From positions 1 through 27,355 of IMG/VR virus record IMGVR_UViG_3300037488_001822: 27,355 bases of DNA. The stretch is one strand, 5' to 3'. The notes below the pieces were generated by a model that saw only the letters and a program-made list of their open reading frames with translations, did not search any database and had not been told where the DNA came from. Each line of letters opens with the position of its first letter. The stretch's first letter is position 1. This stretch comes from a virus. Made by a program: the position numbers and the translations under genes. Positions 4,658 through 27,100 of this stretch are shown here, in pieces.

Positions 4658-8140
<3,483 letters not shown>

Positions 8141-19746: not shown

Positions 19747-20829
19747 CTATGCTTTTAGAAGAGTTTTAAATTCCTGTAAAATCTGTGCGGCGTACCGAGA
19801 ATCGATTAATTTAATACGTCTTTTCTTTTCATTTAGATCATATTCGTATTGAAAGTTTGTAATAGCTCTTTTAGTACCAGAATCTACTTTAAAGTCTTGT
19901 ATAAGATGCTGCTTTGCATCAGTTGTTAAATATGAAGATATATCTTCCTGCGTATAGTAAACTTGTGGAGGATCATAATTATAATCAACATGCATTTCGA
20001 TAAAATAGAAATTACCATTGATATCTATCAACCGAACGATTTGGCGATTTGTTCCATGCTCTGTGAAATCATAATTGTAATCTGACGCGGTTGTTGTAAT
20101 ATTTTCATATATGTCATTATACCAAGTATCAAAATCTACAATCATGTTTTTGTTATTGATATAGTGGTGTATCGTTTGGTGAGCAACGATAAACCCATCT
20201 CGCAATTCGCCGTCATTGTATAACGTCCACTTATCCTGATCGTACATATCAATAATATTACAGCCTTGGGGCAAATAACCATCAACCGTAACAACAACAC
20301 CATTGTTCGATAAAATTTTCAACCATACACCATTTGCCCAATCTAATTGGTTATAGAAAAATGCATAGTCATCTACGAGGTAGTTGTTTGCCCAAACACC
20401 GGTTTCCCGTTTAAATGTCGCATCATCAATTCGAAATCCCATAATACTCTTTTGAGATGTGTGGCTAGTATTGCAACGATATAGTTTTGAATTGTATTGT
20501 ACCTTATTTTCTTCGATGTATGGAACATTGGGTTTCCAAGAAGTCTCTTGATACTTGTGATCAATAAAAGGATAAAATTCATTATATGTCAAAGGCCAAT
20601 CGCGAATGGGATCGAATATGTCATTCGCATAAAAAATTAACCAAGTATATTTGTAATTGCCATAATATTTGTCGGCTAAGATATCTGGTCTTTCATGATC
20701 TTGAATTGTGTGTTCATTATATAAATATACATTCTTTTTTAGATAATCGCGAATTTTATTACGAAGTGTGATGTTCGTGCAAGTCTCTTCGGCATAAGTA
20801 ACTGTTGGAAAAAACCGAAAATAGTCCAT
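19747..20829 (-). CDS. gp53: baseplate wedge protein gp53, 360 aa
   Basis: The N-terminal 110 residues carry the gp53 signature: F..V.YAEE, then HERPDILADKYYGNYKYTWL, IFYANDIFDPIRDWPLT, and a Tyr-rich YPFIDHKYQ. T4 gp53 has the same PEEFANAIYGN..LYWVLL..NDNYDPYYGW pattern but only 196 residues. The remaining 250 residues here (Tyr/Asp-rich, with VTVDGYLPQG and a C-terminal ITNFQYEYDLNEKKRRIKLI) are an extension seen in marine T4-likes. It completes and caps the wedge. The gp48 stop lies 2 nt upstream. Confidence 0.9.
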   Translation of the reverse strand: MDYFRFFPTVTYAEETCTNITLRNKIRDYLKKNVYLYNEHTIQDHERPDILADKYYGNYKYTWLIFYANDIFDPIRDWPLTYNEFYPFIDHKYQETSWKPNVPYIEENKVQYNSKLYRCNTSHTSQKSIMGFRIDDATFKRETGVWANNYLVDDYAFFYNQLDWANGVWLKILSNNGVVVTVDGYLPQGCNIIDMYDQDKWTLYNDGELRDGFIVAHQTIHHYINNKNMIVDFDTWYNDIYENITTTASDYNYDFTEHGTNRQIVRLIDINGNFYFIEMHVDYNYDPPQVYYTQEDISSYLTTDAKQHLIQDFKVDSGTKRAITNFQYEYDLNEKKRRIKLIDSRYAAQILQEFKTLLKA

Positions 20830-22239: not shown

Positions 22240-22935
22240 ATGGCATCAATAGAAGCTTTCAAAAAGAAAATTAAATTGGGTTTAGCAAGACCCAATCGAT
22301 ATGTTGTACAAATTACATTTCCAGCAGGGTTTTTAAATGCGGATACAACGAATGTAATTGCATATAACGACATAAGTTATGCGTGGAGTGGTTATTTTAA
22401 AAGCCGAATGAATGATGCTTCAAACTCAAGAACCCTATCTCTTTTATGTGAAAGCGCTGAGCTTCCGGGCGTACATTTTGCAACCACCGAAGATAAACAG
22501 TGGGGACCAGTTCGTAAGATACCATACCTACCGGTGTACAATGATCTAAGTTTTGTATTCATGTGCGATAACTATATGAAACCCAGATTATTATTTGATC
22601 AGTGGCAAGCTGTGGTTATGGACAAATATGATTTTAAATCGTTTTTTTACGAATCATATATTGCAACAGTGACGGTCAGTTTACTCAACGAACACAATCA
22701 TTCAATTTATACAATCAAATGTTTTGAAGCTTATCCTATTGAAGTTACCACACAAACATTATCATACGGCGAAACGGATACTTATCTTAAACTTGAAGTT
22801 AAGATGGCATATCGATATTGGGATATGAGCGATGAAACTGAAACCTTTAAACAAACTTTTGCCAATCACAATGAAAAGGCATCCTTTGCACGACAAAATA
22901 ACAACGTAGAAAGTGGTATTGGATCGGGCGATTGA
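22240..22935 (+). CDS. tail tube family protein (gp54-like initiator favoured over gp19)
   Basis: A 231-residue protein with the tail-tube fold pattern: N-terminal FKKKIKLGLARPNRYVVQIT, then LLCESAELPGVHFAT, a strand pair NDLSFVFMCDN, FDQWQAVVM, and a C-terminal YPIEVTTQTLSYGETD..LEVKMAYRYWD. T4 gp19 (tube) and gp54 (tube initiator on the baseplate) share this fold. The neighbours gp4 and gp48 and the lack of a sheath gene next to it favour gp54, but gp19 cannot be excluded. The last 25 residues are polar and probably disordered. A near-match to the late motif (AATAAATA at 22222-22229) lies just upstream. Confidence 0.8.
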   Translation: MASIEAFKKKIKLGLARPNRYVVQITFPAGFLNADTTNVIAYNDISYAWSGYFKSRMNDASNSRTLSLLCESAELPGVHFATTEDKQWGPVRKIPYLPVYNDLSFVFMCDNYMKPRLLFDQWQAVVMDKYDFKSFFYESYIATVTVSLLNEHNHSIYTIKCFEAYPIEVTTQTLSYGETDTYLKLEVKMAYRYWDMSDETETFKQTFANHNEKASFARQNNNVESGIGSGD

Positions 22936-22967: not shown

Positions 22968-23693
22968 ATGACCTTACCTACTTTAACTGTGCCTACTTTT
23001 GATGTGGTTGTTCCTTCGACGAACAAACCCATTAAGTGTAGACCCTTTCTAGTAAAAGAAGAAAAAATTCTTTTAATGGCTTTGGAAAGCGCAGATGAAA
23101 ATGAATCGGTTAATGCTGTTAAACAAATTTTAAACAACTGTATCGTTGATTTGAAACAGCATGAAATTGATACCTTTGCTATCTTTGATTTAGAATATAT
23201 CTTTTTAAAGATTCGTTCGAGATCAAAGGGTGAAAAAGTTCAGATATCCTACAAGGGTATTGAAGATGCTGAATGTGAGGAGTGTAGAAAAACTAAAACT
23301 TATACAATTGACTTAAACAAAGTTGAAATTATTAGAGATCCAGATCATAGTATAAAGATACCAATAACAGATGATATTGGTGTAATGATGCGATATCCGG
23401 CGTTCTCTTTAGTTGAAAAGTTAGATAAAGGAACTGAAACGGAAATCATGTTTGATCTTGTGAAAACGTGCATTGAATCGATTTATGACAAAGAGGATGT
23501 ATATTTAATTAAAGATTATTCAACTGAAGAAGTTGAAAAGTTTATTGAAAGTTTAACATCTGAGCAGTTGGAAAGAATATTTCAATTTTTTACAACGATG
23601 CCGCGTATTGAATATGTACTTGATTTGAGTTGTGAAAAGTGCGGCAGGAAAGAGGTTCAAGTTCTTACGGGGCTTAACCGTTTTTTCCAATAA
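22968..23693 (+). CDS. gp26: baseplate hub assembly protein gp26-like, 241 aa
   Basis: The start LPTLTVPTFDVVVPS..KPIKCRPFLVKEEKIL matches the T4 base plate (gp26-type) family of marine T4-likes, as do FAIFDLEYIFLKIRSRS (about 63-79) and the C-terminal DLSCEKCGRKE. Two Cys pairs, CEEC (about 101-104) and CEKC (about 223-226), could bind zinc. A perfect AGGAGA ribosome binding site lies 5 nt before the ATG. T4 gp26 acts in hub assembly, together with gp51, ahead of gp29. The gene ends in a slippery heptamer followed at once by a -1 frame that continues for 64 codons (next entries). Confidence 0.85.
   Translation: MTLPTLTVPTFDVVVPSTNKPIKCRPFLVKEEKILLMALESADENESVNAVKQILNNCIVDLKQHEIDTFAIFDLEYIFLKIRSRSKGEKVQISYKGIEDAECEECRKTKTYTIDLNKVEIIRDPDHSIKIPITDDIGVMMRYPAFSLVEKLDKGTETEIMFDLVKTCIESIYDKEDVYLIKDYSTEEVEKFIESLTSEQLERIFQFFTTMPRIEYVLDLSCEKCGRKEVQVLTGLNRFFQ
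23681..23687 (+). promoter_or_regulatory. candidate -1 programmed frameshift site, T TTT TTC
   Basis: In the gp26-like frame the codons are CGT TTT TTC CAA TAA, giving the X XXY YYZ heptamer T TTT TTC at 23681-23687, two codons before the stop. A -1 slip leads straight into the 64-codon frame that ends by ATGA overlap with the next gene. No strong downstream hairpin is evident by eye. Confidence 0.65.
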
Positions 23694-23881
23694 TTCTTGG
23701 TGATGAAACATTAGAAAATTTGTATAAGACTAATTTCTTTTTGATGTATTTCCAGAAATTTAGTCTTGAGGAACTTGAGAACATGATACCTTTCGAGCGT
23801 GAGATCTATTTGCTTTTGTTGAATGAACAAATACGTAAAGAAAACGAAGAGTTAGAGAAACATAATAGGCAGAAACGATGA
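23687..23881 (+). CDS. -1 frame extension of gp26 (gp51-like), 64 codons
   Basis: After the slip, the product reads ...LNRFF then PIILGDETLENLYKTNFFLM, continues with YFQKFSLEEL and ENMIPFEREIYLLLL, and ends NRQKR at TGA (23879-23881). Full fusion length is 304 residues (240 + 64). There is no in-frame start near its beginning; the first ATG is codon 20 and has no ribosome binding site, so independent expression would lose the first third. The MIPFEREIY motif and the charged coil after it fit the small T4 gp51 hub-assembly catalyst class. The stop overlaps the next ATG as ATGA, strong evidence that this frame is translated. Confidence 0.7.
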   Translation, partial: PIILGDETLENLYKTNFFLMYFQKFSLEELENMIPFEREIYLLLLNEQIRKENEELEKHNRQKR

Positions 23882-24192
23882 AACTAAAACAGTTGCCCAT
23901 AAGATTTAATTTACCTGGTGGTGTACAGGTCAGAAGAAACCGCCGACGAATGGCATGGTTATCGTTACTGTCAATGATTGGCATAGTTCTTTTGATGATG
24001 TTTTTTATTAACCCAACTCGTATCGAATCTTTAAGTGGTATTATTGAAACGTTATTTTATTGTTTATCTGCTATTGTATTGGCATATAATGGAGTCGCAT
24101 TATACGATGATAACAATCTATTAAAGTCACAGCACACAAAAGACGATAGCGAAAATGATGAAGAAGCCGCTATTAATAAGGGAAGTAAATAG
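23878..24192 (+). CDS. small membrane protein with two helices, 104 aa
   Basis: A basic N-terminus (RRNRRRMAW) precedes two membrane segments, about residues 26-44 (WLSLLSMIGIVLLMMFFI) and 52-72 (IIETLFYCLSAIVLAYNGVA). A highly charged C-tail follows (KDDSENDEEAA). Size and topology fit a class II-like holin, but nothing confirms lysis function, and its place between hub assembly genes and the tape measure is odd for a holin. The start overlaps the frameshift product's stop (ATGA). It may instead be a virion membrane-interaction protein. Confidence 0.8.
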   Translation: MKLKQLPIRFNLPGGVQVRRNRRRMAWLSLLSMIGIVLLMMFFINPTRIESLSGIIETLFYCLSAIVLAYNGVALYDDNNLLKSQHTKDDSENDEEAAINKGSK

Positions 24193-24195
24193 ACA

Positions 24196-27100
24196 ATGGC
24201 TACTCAAAAAGATCTAGAAAAAAAATATAAACAACTAAAAACCCAAGCTCAGAAATTAAAAAAAGATCTTCTTGCTAGTGGCTATGATATTAAGAAACCA
24301 GAGCAACTTGAAATTTTAAAACATGTCGATATAGCCGATTTCATACAAGATATGAATGGGACCGTTTATGACTTTTTTCAATGTATTAACAATGGCTTTG
24401 AAAATTTTGCAAACCAAATTAAAAATATAGAAAAGATAACCAGTCGATCTGAAAACGATATAAAGAAAATTGTTACCGAAAACCAAGATTTGCAGAATGT
24501 TATTAAAAAAATTAATAACCAAATTGTTCAATCTTTACCAAAAGATGAAAAAGAATTTGAAAAGCTGTCACAGACGTTGGCACAGAACGAAAAAACTTTT
24601 CAAGAGAGCTTTGGTGAATATACAGATTATAGTAAACACATTGCTTCAGAATTGCAGAAAATACAACAAACTGCTAGAGGCGCTGAGTCGTTTCGTGATC
24701 TAAAAAATTTGGCAAAACAGACAAACACCTGGAAAGAAATTTTACTTGAAAATTTTGAAAACACAGCCGAAAGATCTCACCTGTTGGAACAGGTTACACT
24801 TCAACACGAAACTCTAAATAAAGAAATGAAAAAACGTTCTGGCGTTTTTCATAGAACCGCGAAGTTTTTTGGTAAGCATAAAGGAACGATGGCTTCGATT
24901 GTCGGCGCTGCCACAACGCAAAGCCCACTAGCATTATGGATGTTTGATGCAATGTTTAGTGCGGGAGAGCGAAGAAAGCAAGCTGCACAGATGTCCAAAA
25001 AATATAAGACTGCACAATTATATAATACACGAGATTTCTTACAGTCGCAAGAAACTGGCAAACCGGTTAGATCTAGCACAAGATCTAGAACCATTGATAG
25101 CGAATCTAGACAATTTGAAAGCGGTGTATTTGAACAAATTTTAGATCAACTAAGTTTACACACAGAATATTTAAAAAATATTTCTCGAGTTGAAAATAAA
25201 ACTCATGTCGCTATCGATGAGCAAACACAAACGATTAAGCAAAACGAATCACATCGTATACGAGAGCAGGCATCTGCTGATTTTGCTTCTGAAGAATCTG
25301 CCACCGAAACGAATGATGAAAAGTGGAGACTGAAATTGGCTCAAGTCACCGCCGCCGGGGCTGTCGGTGGACCCGGTGGACCCGGTGGACCGGGTGGTGG
25401 CGGGTGGGTATCGTCAATAAAAGACACAATACTAACATATCTTGGTATCAAAACCGGGGTGGGTATGATAAAAAACTTACTCCCAAAGGCTAAAGGCATG
25501 GGCACCCTGGCTCTAGGAGTAACTGGAACTGCGCTGGCAGCAAGGAACATTAACGAATCAATAGATCAAAGTAAACGATATGGCGTAAGTCCCGCTGTCG
25601 GAGCGGCTTCATCACAACTCATACCAGGTGCGACAACCGCTGTGGCGGGGTTGGCAACCGGGGGGCTTTTTGGCACTAGCGCTGGATATGCCGGAGGCGA
25701 AGCACTTCAAGCTATACTTCCTGACAAAGAAAAGGGTAATATTGCTAGAGGTATGCAAACCGTAGTAGATGAATGGAAACGGCAGCAATCTTTAGAGCGA
25801 GTATTTAAAGGAACAATTTATAATAAAAAACTTGCGGATCGTGGTCGAAAAGAACTTGCTGAGTTGGAGAAAGAAAAATATAACAGAGCTAAAGAATCTT
25901 ATATAGCGCAAAAACAATATGATATGATACAAAAACAAAACGTGATTCGCGCTGATATTACACAAACAAGAGAAGAGATTAAGTTAGCTACAGATGCTAC
26001 GCGGAAAGAAGCTTTAAAGCGAATCTTGGGGCAGCAGGAAAAAAGGTTAGGCGATTTGATTGGTGAATATGATCAGATGCTTGTCAGGCTCGATGAGTAT
26101 AGAAAAGACCAAGAGCGGGGAGAAAAGAAAACTACCACAGCAAAAGGGAAGGTTCTCGACAAAGAACAAAAAGTTCTCGATAAGGAACGTGGGCTACTAG
26201 ATAAAAAAACAACTGCAATAGATAAACCCGTTCCAACAGAACTACAAGCTCAGCGCGATTTGGCTAAAACTTGGTTAGCTAAGCATATGCTTGGTTATAT
26301 GAATAAGGTAGTTGGCGAAAAACAAAAAACACAATCTAAACAATTAGATATTAATAAAAAAACGAACACTTCTGCATTATTAGCCGCTGCTACGGCTGCC
26401 TTGTTCATAAGGCCAGGAAGGGGGCCTGTAGGAAAGAGAACTCCTTCAACGCCATTTAGTCCTGAAGGGATTCCTTATCCAAACGACATTCGAAAAATTC
26501 GGGAGAAAATTCTAGGTAAGGAAAAGTTAACACCGGAAGAAAAAACAAGATGGGACGATTTCCGAAGTCGTGCGGGGGCTGCTGCTGGCAAAAGTAGAGT
26601 GCAACCAACCGAATCTATATATACCATTCCCGGCAGAGGCGCAGTTGGTTTACGAACTAAAGATACGTCATATAGCCCAGAGGGAGTTCCATACCCCAAA
26701 GATGTGCAACACATACGCGAAAAGATTATAGCTAAAGAACCATTGACCAATGAAGAAAAAAAGAGATGGAATGAATTTCGCCAGAAAGTTCAAGCAGGAA
26801 CAGAAGGAACTTTAGTTAACCCTAAAGATGCAAATGCTAAAATTGCAACCATTCCAGGTAAAGGTCCAGTTGGTCAAAGAACACCAGAAACCCAATTTAG
26901 TCCTGAAGGGATTCCTTATCCACCAGATGTACAACAGATACGTGAAAAGATTATAGGCAAAGAGAAGTTAACACCGGAAGAAAAGAAAAGATGGGACGAT
27001 TTTAGAGGTCGCGCTAATGCAGCTACAGGCAAGGGTGGAGCACCACGGCCTAAACCAATCTACAGTATTCCAGGTAAAGGTCCAGTTGGTCAAAGAACAC

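Follow-up and report, generated by a model that had tools for sequence, protein, structure and literature searches.

The window (the whole stretch of 27,355 nucleotides that was analysed, positions 1 to 27,355 of the IMG/VR virus record IMGVR_UViG_3300037488_001822) carries on its plus strand a gp26-like gene whose 3' end is overlapped by a gp51-like reading frame in the -1 phase. This pair lies between a tail-tube-like gene and a candidate tape measure gene, and the features of the locus are as follows:

22240..22935, plus strand: tail-tube-like protein (gp19/gp54-like; phrog_45, E 3.6e-37), upstream of the putative chaperone gene
22968..23693, plus strand: gp26-like gene, candidate short tail assembly chaperone (TAC-N or 'G' form), 241 aa, ending ...GLNRFFQ*; PF12322, E 4e-60; phrog_150, E 3e-64
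23669..23672, plus strand: GGGG, the window's weak copy of a Shine-Dalgarno-like element, about 9-10 nt 5' of the slippery site
23681..23687, plus strand: predicted slippery heptamer T TTT TTC for a -1 shift, its last base being re-read as the first base of CCA
23691..23693, plus strand: 0-frame stop TAA of the gp26-like gene, one codon past the heptamer
23687..23881, plus strand: -1 frame encoding the gp51-like extension (putative T part of the long form, TAC-NC), 64 residues, with the stop TGA at 23879-23881; phrog_634, E 7.5e-19
23878..24192, plus strand: small ORF resembling a membrane protein, coupled through ATGA to the 3' end of the -1 frame, with a homologue at locus L001 (61%) and weakly at L002, L006 and L107
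24196..27354, plus strand: large ORF, tape measure candidate by position and composition, at least 1053 aa, running off the window

The 3' end of the gp26-like gene reads GGG CTT AAC CGT TTT TTC CAA TAA, and T TTT TTC sits in X XXY YYZ phase relative to the gp26-like frame, at exactly the coordinates that the original prediction had given. The 64-residue extension encoded in the -1 frame opens PIILGDETLENLYK... and, as had been proposed, has no start of its own nearby: a stop codon at 23675-23677 closes the frame just 3 nt 5' of the heptamer, so that no start codon upstream of the heptamer is usable and entry there needs a shift. The earliest possible starts inside it are TTG 23720 and ATG 23744, both well within the conserved part and lying 27 and 51 nt 3' of the gp26 stop, rather than near that stop as in a coupled independent gp51 gene. 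The overlap of its TGA with the ATG (23878) of the following ORF is likewise as predicted. The window thus shows the end of a short-form gene overlapping a start-less shifted frame with a short extension, as in systems of the G/GT type.

The order of chaperone, extension, small ORF and annotated tape measure gene is shared with the phages Cr30 and HTVC008M, which makes it likely that the junction stands ahead of the tape measure gene, as the original prediction had held. Homology did not add to this: family searches with the ORF at 24196 returned no informative match, and BLASTP found no similarity between it and the tape measure protein of HTVC008M. This ORF contains several similar repeats of ~60 residues (PGRGPVGxRTPxTxFSPEGIPYP...EKxRWDxFRxRA). 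Elsewhere in the window, the minus strand encodes a 1160-residue collagen-like protein with GPTG repeats (4658-8140; PF01391, E 4e-128) that adjoins baseplate genes, and these repeats also produce long plus-strand ORFs in antisense. A gp53-like baseplate wedge protein (19747-20829, minus strand) also matches a carbohydrate-binding module (PF02839, E 9e-7).

We examined the relationship of the two parts to gp26 and gp51 of phage T4 using profile-profile comparisons. The gp26-like protein has the PF12322 (T4_baseplate) domain that marks the short form of the T4 family, and its family aligns with T4 gp26 (hhalign, 99.2%, E 3e-19). The extension matches phrog_634, described as 'baseplate hub assembly catalyst', with a weaker match to the C-terminus of phrog_150 (positions 238-280, E 2.4e-5), indicating that in some phages both parts are encoded in one frame. 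T4-type gp51 is organized in precisely this way: its residues 1-202 form a complete gp26-like domain (PF12322, E 6e-57; hhalign against the gp26 family of the window, 97.5%, E 7e-12), while residues 204-244 match the extension encoded here by the -1 frame (hhalign, E 1.8e-6). T4-type gp26, on the other hand, is the PF12322 domain alone, with no tail. Thus, T4 gp26 corresponds to the short form and T4 gp51 to the long form, as products of paralogous genes. The original prediction had equated gp26 with G and gp51 with T, and for T4 this one-to-one correspondence fails, since T4 gp51 holds the entire gp26-like domain as well as the tail; judging from the sequence matches, it is only the stub annotated as 'gp51' in marine phages that corresponds to the T part. 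In T4, genes 26 and 51 lie on opposite strands as two separate full-length genes, whereas the window has one gene with a -1 extension. In T4-type phages, where the long form has its own gene, gp26 does not end in T TTT TT but, for example, in GAG TTC TTT GAG. An ORF of Campylobacter phage CC_R7 (L106:1740-2480), annotated as hypothetical, encodes a gp26-like domain and a gp51 tail in a single frame and matches phrog_23772, phrog_634 and phrog_150.

A structural model of the gp26-like protein (pLDDT 91.9), for which the alignment was built from viral-contig loci only, was compared with the PDB. The only matches above a Foldseek probability of 0.1 were 2OB9 (HK97 gp13) and 3FGX, with values of 0.2-0.3 and E 1.9-5.3 that are below significance; both have been described as tail assembly chaperones (PMC9603447). 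A sequence search against solved structures gave no match, and a PDB fold search with T4-type gp51 returned nothing meaningful.

A protein-guided scan of IMG/VR recovered 80 loci, of which one is truncated and 79 have complete junctions. Near the 3' end of gp26, all 79 have T TTT TTC or T TTT TTT, and every gp51 part that tblastn detected at an IMG/VR locus lies in the -1 frame. Among 16 isolate junctions of this type, 12 combine T TTT TTN in the same phase with a -1 gp51 part: those of P-SSM2, ACG-2014j, Mosig, HTVC008M, the KVP40-type ValKK3 and phi-pp2, Aeromonas Ah1, Caulobacter Cr30, Acidovorax ACP17, Sinorhizobium phiM9 (with T TTT TTG), Agrobacterium Atu_ph04 and Pseudomonas Astolliot. 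The other four isolates, namely three Ackermannviridae and Vibrio D528 (L088, L089, L091 and L092), have retained the -1 frame but not T TTT TT; hence, the heptamer is not universal. The expectation that relatives would keep both heptamer and -1 frame is accordingly borne out by the IMG/VR junctions and by three quarters of the isolates, and gives way in the Ackermannviridae and Vibrio D528; with these exceptions, the in-phase slippery sequence is conserved across relatives as in G/GT-type systems. In place of the heptamer, these four have sites such as GAA ATT TTC ATT TAA and CAC GTT TTT CGC TAA, and most of them have an ATG overlapping the gp26 stop (TAATG), which is absent in L092.

To describe the junctions with the heptamer we used a set of 87 (the T6 set: 79 IMG/VR loci, seven isolates and the window). 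In every one the slip site precedes the stop by one codon or slightly more, and the gp51-type -1 frame is open. The 0-frame stop falls 3 nt past the heptamer in 77 junctions, including that of the window, and 9-42 nt past it in the remaining 10, so that the stop shifts its position while the heptamer stays, making the heptamer the more constant of the two. The T run ranges from 6 to 8 and is only 6 T long in 52 of the 87. The extension, always in the -1 frame, is 79% identical to that of the window in L001 and about 30-58% at other loci; it measures 55-69 aa at every locus where it is complete, and the residues P35, E37 and Y41 are kept across families. Among the relatives we saw no broken -1 frame alongside a kept heptamer, and in 38 of 53 relatives (<70% identical) the -1 frame lacks any ATG, GTG or TTG close to the junction.

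We then asked whether the heptamer is conserved as nucleotides, using codon tests on the 53 loci that are <70% identical. The codon before Phe-Phe specifies Asp (22 loci), Ser (18), Asn (9), Arg (2) or Gly (2), and yet its third base is T in all 53 (log10 P -12.3 against the codon-usage expectation); similarly, the first Phe is TTT in 53/53 (log10 P -7.8), these probabilities being indicative rather than exact as the loci are related. The Phe-Phe at the junction is encoded as T TTT TT at every one of the 53 loci, whereas only 12 of the 61 Phe-Phe pairs found elsewhere in these genes are encoded in this way (Fisher p 4e-21). It is in this conservation, rather than in the presence of a heptamer, that the excess over chance lies: by itself the motif is unremarkable, with two further in-phase T TTT TTN (15663 and 16819, both minus strand) among the genes scanned in the window.

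The sequence upstream of the heptamer shows a second shared signal. Across the family, the mean energy of the duplex with the anti-Shine-Dalgarno sequence of 16S rRNA peaks sharply at -6.2 kcal/mol in an 8-nt window starting at offset -15, which places the Shine-Dalgarno-like core about 9-10 nt 5' of the heptamer, the spacing typical of Shine-Dalgarno-stimulated -1 shifts. Under synonymous codon resampling the family signal of -6.24 falls to -4.61 +/- 0.21, and none of 400 resamplings attained it (about 8 sd). The window's own pairing, at -5.0 kcal/mol, is weaker than the family average. Judging from these sequence patterns, the Shine-Dalgarno-like stretch probably promotes slippage across much of the family. 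On the 3' side, no stable hairpin was found in the window (z about +1), and the family mean z over 50 nt is only -0.89; a downstream RNA hairpin as stimulator was dropped in view of this inconsistent structure.

Taken together, these observations argue that -1 programmed frameshifting on T TTT TTC very probably yields two tail assembly chaperones, one short and one long, from a single gene, a reading that had been put forward with the analogy to G/GT and that the comparison, through the conserved heptamer, phase and -1 frame, strongly supports. The majority of ribosomes would terminate at the TAA at 23691 and release the 241-aa gp26-like short form, while a minority, at a rate that is itself a prediction, would slip back by one base on T TTT TTC and go on to read CCA ATA ATT... 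These would append the 64-residue gp51-like tail, the likely counterpart of the C-terminus of T4 gp51, to give a long form of ~304 residues with the predicted junction peptide ...NRFFPIILGDETLENLYK. By analogy with lambda gpG and gpGT, the short form may coat the tape measure protein, with the long form perhaps joining this complex to the tail tube. The proposed chaperone role draws on the lambda analogy, the gene order, the weak fold match and the T4 literature, in which gp26 and gp51 are listed as hub assembly chaperones (PMC3004832).

One alternative is that the gp51 part constitutes a small gene of its own, expressed without any shift through termination-reinitiation or from a weak start. 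In its favour, GenBank annotates this part as its own CDS in many phages, and the KVP40-type phages, Cr30, phiM9, Atu_ph04, L002 and L020 have an in-frame ATG at or just past the stop (TAATG or TGATG). However, in the window the frame is closed 3 nt before the heptamer, and use of TTG 23720 or ATG 23744, neither with an evident Shine-Dalgarno sequence, would lose 11-19 residues of the conserved extension; moreover, the heptamer is present in all 53 relatives including the 38 that have no start near the junction, and reinitiation leaves the constraint on the third-base T unexplained. We therefore consider a separate gene improbable, and reinitiation was rejected on the absence of start codons near the junction and the recurrence of the arrangement. 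A shift by the RNA polymerase rather than the ribosome could make the same fusion, as a U run of 6-8 might permit transcriptional slippage; but such slippage usually needs runs longer than 6 T, most of the runs here are no longer than that, and the Shine-Dalgarno-like element at 9-10 nt is a stimulator of ribosomes, leaving this possibility slightly less probable still.

Two further readings deny that any shift takes place. Homopolymers are error-prone, and the domain and tail do occur in one frame in T4 gp51 and in the CC_R7 protein, so that the frame break might be a sequencing or assembly error in what is truly one continuous ORF. Against this, 79 independent contigs from metagenomes and more than 10 finished phage genomes show an identical break in identical phase, at T runs of only 6 in 52 of 87 cases, and this recurrence refutes an error. 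It is hardly more credible that the heptamer is kept merely for the sake of the Phe-Phe near the end of gp26, with the -1 ORF as a decayed remnant: both phenylalanines are indeed invariant in the alignment, but the T TTT TT encoding is not shared by most other Phe-Phe pairs of the same genes, and a remnant would not be expected to retain P35, E37 and Y41 across families or a length of 55-69 aa at every complete locus.

Frameshifting thus being the preferred reading, its distribution bears on the origin of the T4 arrangement. In a tree of 43 rows, the T4-type gp26 proteins cluster together, as do the T4-type gp51 proteins, and the two clusters jointly occupy one side of a branch (support 96/85), with all frameshift-type proteins, including those of the Ackermannviridae, on the opposite side. 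The KVP40-type and Ah1 phages, which belong to the Straboviridae, keep the frameshift; hence, the simplest reading is that one duplication, giving the T4 genes 26 and 51, replaced an older frameshift, a polarity that we infer from a tree whose root is not fixed. On balance we favour a scenario in which a Shine-Dalgarno-stimulated T TTT TTN shift is widespread and probably ancestral in the T4 superfamily, was lost once by duplication in the T4 lineage, and changed again in the Ackermannviridae, where the -1 frame would have been kept with a different, undescribed joining site.

Comparable arrangements are known from other systems. The lambda slippery sequence for gpG/gpGT is G GGA AAG, likewise with a -1 shift. 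As in lambda (reviewed in PMC5009743), the window has a short form and a -1 long form directly 5' of the tape measure position, with a short C-terminal extension; the two differ in the slippery sequence, T TTT TTC here, and in the larger size of the gp26-like protein, the comparison with gpG being one of arrangement. The chaperone locus of Vandenendeviridae and Andersonviridae (phage Adele, PMC12846349) also shifts to -1 at T-rich sequence close to the 3' end of the short-form gene, with the -1 frame open in all relatives, but its motif is GTTTTT; this comparison is made by description. Among Shine-Dalgarno-stimulated shifts such as that of E. coli dnaX, the element about 10 nt 5' of the heptamer is held in common; the dnaX site has, in addition to its upstream element at ~10 nt, a downstream hairpin, unlike the present family with no consistent hairpin.

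The title of Vladimirov, Gautam and Davidson (Virology 2022, 566:9-15; PMID 34826709) states that the tail assembly chaperones of T4-like phages have been identified. This work is credited with poly-T slippery sequences in T4-like short-form genes (PMC12846349), and is cited by PRFect (PMC10885494) for some T4-like phages that do not frameshift but encode the two forms in a short gene and a longer fusion gene. As presented by these two citing papers, the 2022 study covers both the chaperones and the slippery sites; thus, the central inference is already published, and the proposal that gp26 and gp51 are the T4 counterparts of the chaperones, while supported, is not new. The Shine-Dalgarno-like element and the tree result were not found in the literature searched, though the 2022 paper may contain them. 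The window is, then, almost certainly a further and well-supported example, as read from sequence, of an arrangement already known in phages, with a predicted frameshift product.

This arrangement links the long-unclear gp26 and gp51 of T4 to tail assembly chaperones, and the frameshifted gene and the duplicated genes offer a natural comparison for how the ratio of short to long form is set. It also accounts for the state of 'gp51' in marine T4-like phages, a fragment of 55-69 residues, mostly start-less, which annotation drops or gives a wrong start. In the public records, the gp51 extension is unannotated in ACG-2014j (L081), and internal starts truncate the annotated extension in others, for instance those of Mosig (L083), HTVC008M (L109) and phi-pp2 (L112).
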